Source: Acuticoccus sp. I52.16.1 (lineage in GTDB: Bacteria; Pseudomonadota; Alphaproteobacteria; Rhizobiales; Amorphaceae). Taken from it: a stretch of DNA of 64,000 nucleotides. The notes under the pieces are model-generated. The model was not told the DNA's origin and ran no database searches. It saw only the letters and a list, made by a program, of their open reading frames with translations. The stretch is taken from NCBI RefSeq assembly GCF_022865125.1, contig NZ_CP094828.1, positions 4,767,219 through 4,831,218 of the forward strand, read 5' to 3'. The position numbers were made by a program, and so were the translations under genes. Positions 39,198-48,941 of this stretch are shown here, in pieces (positions within the stretch are counted from its first letter, which is position 1; each line of letters begins with the position of its first letter).

Positions 39198-40022
39198 ATG
39201 AAGATCGCACTCCTCGGCGCCGGCGGAAAAATGGGGGTCAGGCTCGCCAACAACCTCGTCGGGTCCGACTATGAGGTCGCCTATGTCGAGGTTTCGGACG
39301 TCGGCCGGAAGCGCCTGAAAGACGCCATCGGCGCAGACTGCGTCGACCTCGACACCGCGATCGCCGGGGCCGGGGCCGTCGTGCTGGCGGTTCCCGACAC
39401 GCTGATCGGCAAGGTCGCCGGGCCGCTGGTCCCCAAGCTCGACCCCGGCACCATCGTCATCGCGCTCGACGCTGCGGCGCCGCACGCCGGCCACCTGCCG
39501 GAGCGCGCGGACATCACCTACTTCGTCACCCACCCGTGCCACCCGCCGATCTTCGGCGACGAGCCGGATCTTGCCGCGTTGCAGGATCATTTCGGCGGAA
39601 TCGCGGCCAAGCAGTCCATCGTCAATGCATTGATGCAGGGGCCGGAGGAGCACTACGCGCTCGGCGAGGGGATCGCCAAGACGATCTGGAAGCCGATCCT
39701 GCGCTCGCATCGCGTCACGGTGGAGCAGATGGCGCTCCTGGAGCCGGGCCTGTCGGAGACCGTCGCCGCGACGCTGCTGTTGGCCATGCGCCAGGCGATG
39801 GACGAAGTCGTCGCCCGCGGGGTCGACAAGGAGGCCGCGCGCGATTTCCTCCTCGGCCACATGAACGTCCTCGGTGCGGTGATCTTCGAGGAGGTCGAGG
39901 GTGTGTTCTCCGACGCCTGCAACAAGGCCATCGAGAACGCGATGCCCGTCCTGATGCAGCCGGACTGGAAGAGGGTCTTCGAGCCGGACGAAATCATGGA
40001 GAGCATCCGGCGCATCACCTGA
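39198..40022 (+). CDS. apnO: D-apionate oxidoisomerase family protein (ApnO)
   Basis: A 274-residue cytoplasmic enzyme with a Rossmann N-terminus (LLGAGGKMGVRLANN, residues 5-19) and a helical C-terminal domain of the 6-phosphogluconate-dehydrogenase type. Members of this family next to a RuBisCO-like protein and a DUF1537 kinase were shown to oxidise D-apionate with migration of a hydroxymethyl group, giving 3-oxo-isoapionate. The context here is the same, so ApnO is the best name. THPCHPPIFGDEPD (about 111-124) is a likely active-site segment. It is the first gene of a nine-gene same-strand cluster; a hairpin separates it from the next gene. Confidence 0.8.
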   Translation: MKIALLGAGGKMGVRLANNLVGSDYEVAYVEVSDVGRKRLKDAIGADCVDLDTAIAGAGAVVLAVPDTLIGKVAGPLVPKLDPGTIVIALDAAAPHAGHLPERADITYFVTHPCHPPIFGDEPDLAALQDHFGGIAAKQSIVNALMQGPEEHYALGEGIAKTIWKPILRSHRVTVEQMALLEPGLSETVAATLLLAMRQAMDEVVARGVDKEAARDFLLGHMNVLGAVIFEEVEGVFSDACNKAIENAMPVLMQPDWKRVFEPDEIMESIRRIT

Positions 40023-40033
40023 GGATGCGCAGT

Positions 40034-40056
40034 GGGACGGGAGTGAGACCCGTCCC
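40034..40056 (+). terminator. Hairpin after apnO
   Basis: A perfect eight-base-pair stem GGGACGGG / CCCGTCCC with loop AGTGAGA and no T-tract; likely partial termination or mRNA stabilisation. Confidence 0.5.
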
Positions 40057-40068
40057 GACCAGGTCCGA

Positions 40069-40092
40069 CCGGCGGCACCCATAAGCTGCCGG
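40069..40092 (+). other. Second hairpin upstream of the binding-protein gene
   Basis: CCGGCGGC / GCTGCCGG stem with one G-T pair and an eight-base loop. Together with the previous hairpin it may set the ratio of binding protein to apnO. Confidence 0.35.
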
Positions 40093-46771: not shown

Positions 46772-46772
46772 G

Positions 46773-48167
46773 ATGGACACGCTCCCCCACCGCGTCCTCA
46801 CGTTCTATGGCGACGACTTTACCGGCTCGTCCGCGGTGATGGAGGTGATGACCTTCGCGGGACTGCCGACGGTGATGTTCCTCGAGCCGCCGGACCCCGC
46901 CCGCCTGGAGCGCTTCGCCGCCTATCGCGCCATCGGCATCGCCAGCACCGCACGCTCGATGGGGCCGGGGTGGATGGACGCCCACCTCCCGGCGGCATTC
47001 GAGGCGCTGAAGGCGCTCGGCGCCCCCGTGGCGCACTACAAGGTGTGCTCGACGTTCGATTCGGCGCCGGACCTCGGCTCCATCGGACGCGCGATCGAGC
47101 TGGGCGCGCCCGTCTTCGGCGCCCGCGTCGTGCCGCTCGTGACGGCGGCGCCGCAGATCGGCCGTTGGCAGGCCTTCGGCAACCTCTTCGCCGCGTTCGA
47201 CGGGGCCGTCCACCGCCTCGACCGGCACCCGGTCATGGCGCGCCACCCCGCGACGCCGATGCACGAGGCCGACCTCGCCCGGCACCTCGCCGCGCAGACC
47301 GAGTGGCCGACCGCCCTGATCGACCTCCTGGCGCTGAAGGCCGGGGAGGGCGTCGCCCGGCTGGGGGCCGAGCGGGCGGCGGTGGGCGAGGGCGATCCCC
47401 CCCGCATCGTCTCGATGGACGTGGTCGACGGCGAGACGCTGGCCGCCGTCGGAGCGGCGCTGTGGGCCGAGGCGGGACGGGGCGTGTTCGCGGCGGGGAG
47501 CCAGGGGGTGGAATATGCGCTCATCGCCCATTGGCGCGACGCCGGACTCCTCGCCCCGCCCGAGCCGGTGGCGCCGATAGCCGCGGTCGATCGGATGATC
47601 GCGGTCTCCGGGTCGGTCTCGCCGACCACCGCGGCGCAGATCGCCCACGCCGAGGCGCGCGGCTTCGCCGTCCAGCCGCTCGACGTCGCCGCCACGGTCG
47701 ACGATGCGGCCTGGGTGACGGCGCTGGAGGCGGCCATCGGCGCGGCCTCGGCGGCGATCGAGGCGGGGCGCATCCCGCTGATCGTCACCGCCCGCGGACC
47801 GGACGACCCGGCCGTCGCCCGCTTCGACGCCGCGCTCGACCGCACCGGCACCGCACGCGGCGAGGCGGCCCGCCGGATCGGTCGCGGCCTGGGTCGCATC
47901 GTGCGCGAGCTGGTCTCGCGCCACCGCCTCACCCGCGCCGTCATCAGCGGCGGCGACACCTCCGGCTACGCGACGGCCGAGCTCGGCGTCTATGCCCTGT
48001 CCGCGCTGGCGCCGCTGGCGCCGGGCGCGCCGCTCTGCCGCACCTGGGCCGACGATCCGGCGTTCGACGGGCTGGAGCTGGCGCTCAAGGGTGGGCAGAT
48101 GGGCGCGGCGGATTTCTTCGTGGCGAGCACTGGTCGTATGACTGACGCGCCGGCCGCGATGGCATAG
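46773..48167 (+). CDS. oiaK: DUF1537 four-carbon acid sugar kinase family, 3-oxo-isoapionate kinase (OiaK)
   Basis: A 464-residue kinase. The N-terminal substrate domain has YGDDFTGSS at 12-20 and the C-terminal nucleotide domain has ISGGDTSGYA at 391-400, both hallmarks of the family. DUF1537 kinases phosphorylate four- and five-carbon sugar acids. Next to ApnO and a RuBisCO-like protein the expected substrate is 3-oxo-isoapionate, giving the 4-phosphate. It starts one base after the RuBisCO-like gene ends. Confidence 0.83.
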   Translation: MDTLPHRVLTFYGDDFTGSSAVMEVMTFAGLPTVMFLEPPDPARLERFAAYRAIGIASTARSMGPGWMDAHLPAAFEALKALGAPVAHYKVCSTFDSAPDLGSIGRAIELGAPVFGARVVPLVTAAPQIGRWQAFGNLFAAFDGAVHRLDRHPVMARHPATPMHEADLARHLAAQTEWPTALIDLLALKAGEGVARLGAERAAVGEGDPPRIVSMDVVDGETLAAVGAALWAEAGRGVFAAGSQGVEYALIAHWRDAGLLAPPEPVAPIAAVDRMIAVSGSVSPTTAAQIAHAEARGFAVQPLDVAATVDDAAWVTALEAAIGAASAAIEAGRIPLIVTARGPDDPAVARFDAALDRTGTARGEAARRIGRGLGRIVRELVSRHRLTRAVISGGDTSGYATAELGVYALSALAPLAPGAPLCRTWADDPAFDGLELALKGGQMGAADFFVASTGRMTDAPAAMA

Positions 48168-48182
48168 GCCGGCGCCGATGGC

Positions 48183-48941
48183 GTGAAGGAGCGGGCAGGT
48201 GGGGACGAAGCGTTGAAGGAGCGGCGATTGGGAGACGAGCCGGGCGCGGAGCGGATCGTGCGGCGCAAACTCTCGGACCAGGTGTTCGAGCGGTTGCATG
48301 CGATGATCGGCGGCGAGCTGAAGCCGGGTGACGTGCTGCCCTCCGAGCGCGACCTGATGGAGCGCTTCGGCGTCGGCCGCCCGGCGATCCGCGAGGCGCT
48401 GCAGTCGCTCCAGAACAAGGGCCTCATCACCATCGCGCACGGCGAGCGCAGCCGCGTCAACGTCCTCTCCACCGACCTCGCGGTCGAGCAGATGAACGAG
48501 GTCGCGCGCCTGCTCCTGTCGACCGAGCCCTCCAACCTCGAATATCTCAAGCAAGCGCGCCGGCTCTTCGAGACAGGGGTCGTCGGCATCGCCGCGCGCA
48601 GTGCCGAGGCGGAGGATGTCGCCGACCTGCGCGCCCTCGTCGCCGAGCAGGAGAGCCACATCGGCGACGCGCCCGCCTTCGTCGCCGTCGACATGCGCTT
48701 CCACGTGCGCATCGCGGCGCTGACGGGCAACCCGATCATCGTCACCGTGAGCGACGCGATGCTGCGCTGGCTCTTCGAGTATCACCACTCGCTGCTGCAC
48801 TGGTCCGGCAACGAGGACGTCACCCTCGCCGAGCACGCCGCCATCGTCGACCTCGTCGAGGCGCACGACGTGGACGGCGCGGTGGAGGCGATGCGCGCGC
48901 ATCTGGACCGCTCGTCCGCGCTCTACGTGCATCGGTCCTGA
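48183..48941 (+). CDS. FadR/GntR-family transcriptional regulator of the sugar locus
   Basis: A 252-residue regulator with a winged helix at about 28-95 (KLSDQVFERLHAMIGGELKPGDVLPSERDLMERFGVGRPAIREAL) and an FCD-type ligand domain to the end. It is similar to NanR-like sugar-acid regulators. Lying at the junction of two sugar operons, it likely senses a pathway intermediate. The GTG at 48183 has only weak support; an internal TTG near 48213 is an alternative. The candidate binding element at 39135 and 49003 fits the GGTAT-type sites known for NanR-like proteins. Confidence 0.87.
   Translation: MKERAGGDEALKERRLGDEPGAERIVRRKLSDQVFERLHAMIGGELKPGDVLPSERDLMERFGVGRPAIREALQSLQNKGLITIAHGERSRVNVLSTDLAVEQMNEVARLLLSTEPSNLEYLKQARRLFETGVVGIAARSAEAEDVADLRALVAEQESHIGDAPAFVAVDMRFHVRIAALTGNPIIVTVSDAMLRWLFEYHHSLLHWSGNEDVTLAEHAAIVDLVEAHDVDGAVEAMRAHLDRSSALYVHRS

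Follow-up and report, generated by a model that had tools for sequence, protein, structure and literature searches.

In a 64-kb stretch (64,000 nucleotides, called the window below) of the 5.5 Mb genome of Acuticoccus sp. I52.16.1, we found a gene cluster which, judged on its sequence, is very probably a D-apiose catabolic cluster of this Acuticoccus species. D-apiose is a branched sugar found in the cell walls of plants. The D-apiose route itself is already known, and the fused gene set described here is a modest variant of it, in a new organism. The original prediction had read nine genes, between positions 39198 and 48941, as a D-apiose/D-apionate operon. All nine were found in one cluster on the + strand, each with a Pfam match backing its family, and the tight spacing from the DUF2291 gene to the kinase gene was confirmed (overlaps of 4, 4 and 1 bases, then gaps of 3 and 1 bases). 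The proteins match the pathway set, which supports the D-apiose/D-apionate reading at this level. The end at 48941 was placed too early, by about 8.4 kb, as the same-strand run extends to 57345.

The core cluster and its proposed pathway

The core cluster is composed of the following genes:

39198-40022, + strand: ApnO, D-apionate oxidoisomerase (Pfam PGDH_C, 229 bits; PDB 5t57, E 1e-121; no NCBIfam equivalog reached)
40124-41065, + strand: periplasmic binding protein of a ribose-type importer (Pfam Peripla_BP_4, 205 bits)
41213-41866, + strand: DUF2291 lipoprotein (Pfam PF10054, 182 bits)
41863-43425, + strand: importer ATPase with two ATP-binding cassette (ABC) domains (Pfam ABC_tran, 195 bits, 2 stretches)
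43422-44486, + strand: importer permease (Pfam BPD_transp_2, 153 bits)
44486-45508, + strand: ApsD-type Gfo/Idh/MocA dehydrogenase, D-apiose dehydrogenase (Pfam GFO_IDH_MocA, 80 bits; PDB 5uhw, E 3.8e-118)
45512-46771, + strand: RuBisCO-like protein (RLP), probably of OiaT type rather than OiaX (Pfam RuBisCO_large, 212 bits; PDB 3nwr, E 2.2e-128)
46773-48167, + strand: DUF1537 kinase, OiaK-like, 3-oxo-isoapionate kinase (Pfam SBD_N, 172 bits, and NBD_C, 126 bits; OiaK model, 543 bits)
48183-48941, + strand: NanR-type GntR/FCD regulator (Pfam GntR, 66 bits, and FCD, 88 bits), which belongs to the NanR subfamily (NF003011, 291 bits for a cut-off of 260)

One of the closest known systems is the gene cluster of plasmid p42f of Rhizobium etli CFN 42. 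The identities to its proteins are 76% for the binding protein, 75% for the permease, 73% for ApnO, 60% for the ATPase, 57% for ApsD, 56% for NanR, 47% for the kinase, 43% for the RLP, 40% for DUF2291 and 38% for an ApnL relative located downstream. ApnO and ApsD are both present, with 66-73% and 57-61% identity, respectively, to the two reference clusters (the upper value for ApsD being that of the P. sprentiae protein). On sequence alone, the binding protein is of the D-apiose type: its R. etli relative, the protein crystallised as PDB 5ibq, includes the entire 284-residue stretch aligned from that entry, a structure reportedly solved with D-apiose. Its best plasmid matches (80-81%) come from Roseibium, in a cluster that also contains ApnO, ApsD, RLP and kinase genes. 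Comparable gene sets are found on p42f, on plasmids of Roseibium, Paracoccus and Phyllobacterium and in another Acuticoccus genome (L132). Since they recur in other genomes, the grouping of these genes is not due to chance.

On p42f, the NanR gene is followed by oiaX, the kinase, triose-phosphate isomerase (TIM), an RpiB-type isomerase, an ApnO-type protein, the binding protein, DUF2291, the ATPase, the permease, the Gfo/Idh dehydrogenase and an ApnL-type protein annotated as "hypothetical". ApnO, the ribose-type importer with DUF2291, ApsD, ApnL, the DUF1537 kinase, an RLP and a NanR-type regulator are thus common to both clusters, and the gene order from apnO to ApsD is the same. The R. etli RLP is an OiaX with the two isomerase genes adjoining, whereas the window RLP is not. 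Moreover, the RLP and kinase genes of the window lie between ApsD and NanR, and its ApnL relative lies further away, with a start about 9.9 kb downstream of ApsD.

The names and order of the D-apiose pathway steps are reportedly those set out by Carter et al. in 2018, and they agree with the annotations of the R. etli cluster and of a cluster from marine Rhodobacteraceae. A marine strain of this family, with a cluster encoding D-apionolactonase, apiose dehydrogenase, ApnO, OiaK and OiaX, uses D-apiose as sole carbon source (PMC11747546). For the window, we infer the substrates and the order of reactions as follows. The ribose-type importer would bring in D-apiose, which ApsD would oxidise to a lactone; the ApnL relative would open this lactone to D-apionate. 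ApnO would convert D-apionate to 3-oxo-isoapionate and the OiaK-type kinase would produce the 4-phosphate. An OiaT-type RLP would then split 3-oxo-isoapionate 4-phosphate into 3-phosphoglycerate and glycolate, both entering central metabolism. Glycolate could be used, because a GlcD-like protein is present in the genome (532 bits for a cut-off of 567.9).

The RuBisCO-like protein and the kinase

The original prediction had named the RLP as OiaX or OiaT. The RLP family stands and OiaX is disfavoured: the window RLP is not an OiaX and, by elimination on sequence criteria, is probably of the OiaT type. With the OiaX model (NF042437) it obtains 430 bits, below the cut-off of 700, whereas the OiaX of Paracoccus obtains 777, and it is 43% identical to the R. 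etli OiaX. A quick maximum likelihood tree was calculated from 104 RLPs (111 found, from which identical or duplicate rows were removed), a biased sample in that the window RLP itself served as query in the search that yielded 80 loci. In this tree, a branch of length 1.87, supported at 100% in the SH-like approximate likelihood ratio test (SH-aLRT), sets 5 OiaX rows apart from the remaining 99. The window RLP is included among the 99 non-OiaX rows, closest to those of another Acuticoccus genome (G008) and of Acuticoccus yangtzensis. The RLPs of Ancylobacter (Xanthobacteraceae) encoded near apnO are also included in this large group, a likeness to the OiaT-type pathway of Xanthobacter autotrophicus, to which the window RLP is assigned by elimination. 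According to PMC6302742 (citing Carter et al. 2018), the RLP of X. autotrophicus catalyses transcarboxylation and hydrolysis, and that of Agrobacterium radiobacter K84 decarboxylates 3-oxo-isoapionate 4-phosphate.

An OiaX-type decarboxylase in the same pathway, delivering L-erythrulose phosphate to isomerases, is quite unlikely. OiaX is the best NCBIfam match of the window RLP, no OiaT model is found among its matches, and OiaX clusters likewise have ApnO and kinase neighbours; nevertheless, the RLP lies far under the cut-off, shares only 43% of its residues with the R. etli OiaX and belongs to a different clade. OiaX is rejected because of the score and the tree, the lack of an RpiB relative being in support. 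No relative of TIM or RpiB was found in the window cluster, and the genome contains no convincing relative of RpiB (best E 0.0014, over a piece of about 70 residues), TIM not having been searched for genome-wide; in the same RpiB search, used as positive control, the RpiB of R. etli itself was recovered at 6.5e-96. Genes for TIM or RpiB, with an identity of 40% or more to those of R. etli, occur in the loci of 2 of the 5 OiaX rows and in none of the 99 others. A pathway for tetronates (threonate or erythronate), whose kinases also belong among the DUF1537 kinases, is extremely unlikely. The window kinase obtains 543 bits with the OiaK model (NF042436), compared with 163 for 3-oxo-tetronate kinase (OtnK) and 56 for D-threonate kinase (DtnK), and is only 28% identical to an annotated OtnK; besides, ApnO, ApsD and the 5ibq-type binding protein are all present. 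The clustering with tetronate pathway members that would have spoken against the original prediction was therefore not seen for the kinase, and the tetronate pathway was ruled out by kinase scores and identity. The window kinase stays below the equivalog cut-off of OiaK (700 bits), yet OiaK is by far its best family; the kinase located beside the Paracoccus OiaX is likewise under this cut-off (441 bits).

Two possible markers of the RLP type were set aside. The isomerase genes were dropped as a marker of OiaX, as they were seen in just 2 of the 5 OiaX rows within the fetched stretch. Lower-glycolysis genes, considered as a sign of a 3-phosphoglycerate product, occur near 6 of the 99 non-OiaX RLPs and none of the 5 OiaX RLPs, which is too few.

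Two more RLPs are encoded in the same genome (locus L102, from 8845; locus L101, around 8989). The neighbours of the RLP of L102 are a DUF1537 kinase, parts of a tripartite ATP-independent periplasmic (TRAP) transporter and a short-chain dehydrogenase. A relative of short-chain dehydrogenases and no ApnO are found in the loci of 26 of the 104 RLP rows (including L015, L019, L033, L057 and L091), five of which contain a pyruvate kinase gene; TRAP transporter genes are present in some of the loci. These rows possibly represent another acid-sugar pathway.

The downstream run and the shared promoter element

Downstream of the regulator, a second run of genes on the same strand starts with an HpcH/HpaI aldolase and a D-2-hydroxyacid dehydrogenase, continues with a CUT1-type ABC importer and ends with the ApnL-like gene:

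49078-49854, + strand: HpcH/HpaI-type aldolase (Pfam PF03328, 121 bits)
49854-50897, + strand: D-2-hydroxyacid dehydrogenase, DHDH (Pfam 2-Hacid_dh_C, 185 bits)
51000-52448, + strand: binding protein (SBP2) of the second, CUT1-type importer (Pfam SBP_bac_1, 129 bits)
52512-53456, + strand: permease 1 of the second importer (Pfam BPD_transp_1)
53453-54283, + strand: permease 2 of the second importer (Pfam BPD_transp_1)
54287-55369, + strand: MalK-type ATPase of the second importer (Pfam ABC_tran and OB_MalK)
55366-57345, + strand: diverged relative of the D-apionate lactonase ApnL (NF049900)

The lactonase step was not mentioned in the pathway set of the original prediction; from sequence similarity, it is probably provided by this ApnL relative. 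The protein obtains 597 bits with NF049900, for a cut-off of 750 (the ApnL of Roseibium obtains 917). Compared with four ApnL proteins from apiose-type clusters, its identity is 38-41%, and its alignment with 23 relatives has 63 invariant columns. In a search that scored the 3 top-ranking of 15 first-look candidates, it is the one member of the ApnL family reported for the genome at E <= 1e-60. The ApnL-type gene stands immediately after ApsD in R. etli, Roseibium, Paracoccus and Phyllobacterium. In the window, this place is taken by the RLP and kinase genes, and the ApnL relative forms part of a separate transcription unit, together with the aldolase and the second importer. Its predicted structure (predicted local distance difference test 88.7, predicted template modelling score 0.91) resembles the xylanases and barrels of glycoside hydrolase family GH30. 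In enzymes of clan GH-A, strands 4 and 7 of the barrel each carry a catalytic glutamate at their end. Among the 24 aligned members, no conserved glutamate was found at these two places: positions 465-480 contain no glutamate in any of them, and position 368 is variable, with glutamate in some members and glycine in the window protein. A glycosidase was therefore rejected despite the GH30-like model, and a lactonase would fit the ApnL relative better.

We surveyed 397 genomes of the order. Per genome, each search scored the 3 to 6 candidates that ranked highest at first look, and all absences are given at that sensitivity. The dehydrogenase (E <= 1e-105) was detected in 30 genomes, ApnO (1e-50) in 65, the RLP family (1e-70) in 66 and the ApnL family (1e-60) in 62. 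Among the 30 dehydrogenase genomes, 18 contain ApnO (Fisher p 1.5e-8) and 24 a member of the ApnL family (1.7e-16), relatedness of the genomes being ignored in these tests. A relative of the aldolase adjoins the dehydrogenase in 29 of the 30 loci, window included. ApnO was not found in 12 of the 30 genomes (four of these 12 assemblies are less than 90% complete). Fifteen wider stretches from these 30 genomes were considered: five (L172-L176) display the full order NanR, aldolase, DHDH, importer and ApnL with no ApnO, RLP or OiaK-type kinase, four include ApnO (L177, L180, L181 and L182), and the remaining six are truncated, incomplete or without one of the partners. The importer of L175 and L176 has a binding protein and permeases with just 36-44% identity to their window counterparts, and two of the five stand-alone sets (G099 and G216) come from genomes with ApnO elsewhere. 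As it also stands alone in genomes where ApnO was not found, the downstream set is probably a separate pathway, linked to the D-apiose cluster, and not just a glycolate outlet of the RLP.

The two runs probably share their regulation. A short element is located upstream of each of them:

39137-39146, - strand: ACTGGTAT(CA), upstream of apnO and beside a TTGACA hexamer, putative operator (ACTGGTA kept in two other Acuticoccus genomes)
49007-49016, + strand: ACTGGTAT(AA), upstream of the aldolase gene, putative operator (enriched upstream of the aldolase gene in relatives)

ACTGGTAT occurs exactly twice in the window, at these two promoters, for 0.12 copies expected and with none of 100 shuffles reaching two, a figure that flatters the case, as the element had been spotted by eye in both promoters before this count. 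The other two Acuticoccus genomes keep ACTGGTA or ACTGGTAT at both promoter positions. In relatives, both strands of the 200 bases upstream were searched for CTGGTAT or TGGTATA, taking the best match at each locus and leaving out duplicates. One or the other was found upstream of HpcH (8/18), NanR (23/66), RLP (30/104), ApnO (18/68) and SBP2 (5/19), and was infrequent upstream of ApsD (3/33), ApnL (1/29), K (1/91), DHDH (0/20), Perm (0/13) and SBP (0/11), the background in random 200-base pieces being 1.9%; these counts are not independent, since divergent genes have common upstream regions. The NanR of Escherichia coli binds GGTATA repeats (PMC8012715), which ACTGGTAT resembles. We infer that the NanR-type regulator would bind the ACTGGTAT sites before apnO and before the aldolase gene, and the two transcription units are probably co-regulated.

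Cassettes in Acuticoccus and weighing of the readings

The order in Acuticoccus G008 is ApnO-[importer-ApsD]-RLP-K-NanR-HpcH-DHDH-ApnL, without the second importer. In A. yangtzensis, where the first importer and ApsD are lacking (best ApsD match of 29% identity), the order is ApnO-RLP-K-NanR-HpcH-DHDH-[second importer]-ApnL. Both cassettes are present in the window. G006 and G010 have the order NanR-ApnL-ApsD-RLP-K-ApnO, followed by another importer, with RLPs of 67-68% identity, and G009 has a similar set on a broken contig. Of 8 genomes of the genus, 3 have ApsD (E <= 1e-100) and 7 have an RLP.

Several points weigh against the D-apiose assignment as a whole. The RLP, the kinase and the ApnL-like protein are all under the NCBIfam equivalog cut-offs, with 43, 47 and 38% identity to R. 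etli, so that a shifted substrate is possible for each of them. The OiaT assignment was made by elimination, and the large group shared with Xanthobacteraceae RLPs is indirect evidence. The ApnL relative is part of a set that also exists without ApnO or ApsD nearby. Finally, A. yangtzensis has ApnO, RLP and kinase, but a close ApsD is lacking and its cluster includes no ribose-type importer; in the genus, the core therefore does not require D-apiose itself. This last genome, which keeps the core and the second importer, would suit a cluster dedicated to D-apionate or another apiose-derived acid, with the importer and ApsD as accessories. We consider this unlikely for the window, where, as in L132, the run itself holds the importer and ApsD genes, placed between apnO and the RLP gene, and where the binding protein has its best plasmid matches in the Roseibium cluster with ApnO, ApsD, RLP and kinase genes. 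It is fairly unlikely that the aldolase and the dehydrogenase serve only to remove the glycolate or glyoxylate that the RLP produces: the best NCBIfam match of the dehydrogenase is indeed glyoxylate reductase (215 bits for a cut-off of 455), and linkage to RLP genes is seen in several genomes, but the complete set with importer and ApnL relative occurs in 5 of 15 stretches without RLP, kinase or ApnO, and 12 of the 30 dehydrogenase genomes have no ApnO detected.

The simplest chemistry for the downstream set is that of a lactonase, a 2-hydroxyacid dehydrogenase and a retro-aldolase acting on a D-apionate-related lactone or aldonate. We put forward, as a doubtful proposal, that the set is an undescribed pathway for such a compound, with no need of RLP, kinase or ApnO, which in the window is fused and co-regulated with the D-apiose route. 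Just as tentatively, its steps might be lactone opening, oxidation of the 2-hydroxyl and retro-aldol cleavage. In the literature searched, whose coverage left most subscription journals outside, no paper was found on an aldolase route for D-apionate.

No RNA family reached its gathering score anywhere in the 64 kb, and composition gives no clear break at the cassette borders that would signal a recent transfer (gene GC content of 64-75%, for 70% in the window). Divergent from apnO, a large protein that combines CBM2, Calx-beta repeats and a GH5 cellulase domain is encoded at 34186-38922 (- strand), in keeping with an organism living on plant or algal material. Further upstream, at 28132-32746, another sugar importer region contains a ROK-family protein (- strand), a BPD_transp_2 permease (+ strand) and an ATPase-like stretch (+ strand).

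The cluster very probably places D-apiose use in a marine genus of Alphaproteobacteria. The pathway is built from cassettes, as three Acuticoccus genomes show, the importer-ApsD and second-importer cassettes each being present or absent around a constant core. The analysis also brings to light a conserved set of aldolase, dehydrogenase, importer and lactonase; if the tentative pathway were true, with D-apionate as substrate, it would add a further route to those already known, with formaldehyde released at the aldol step.

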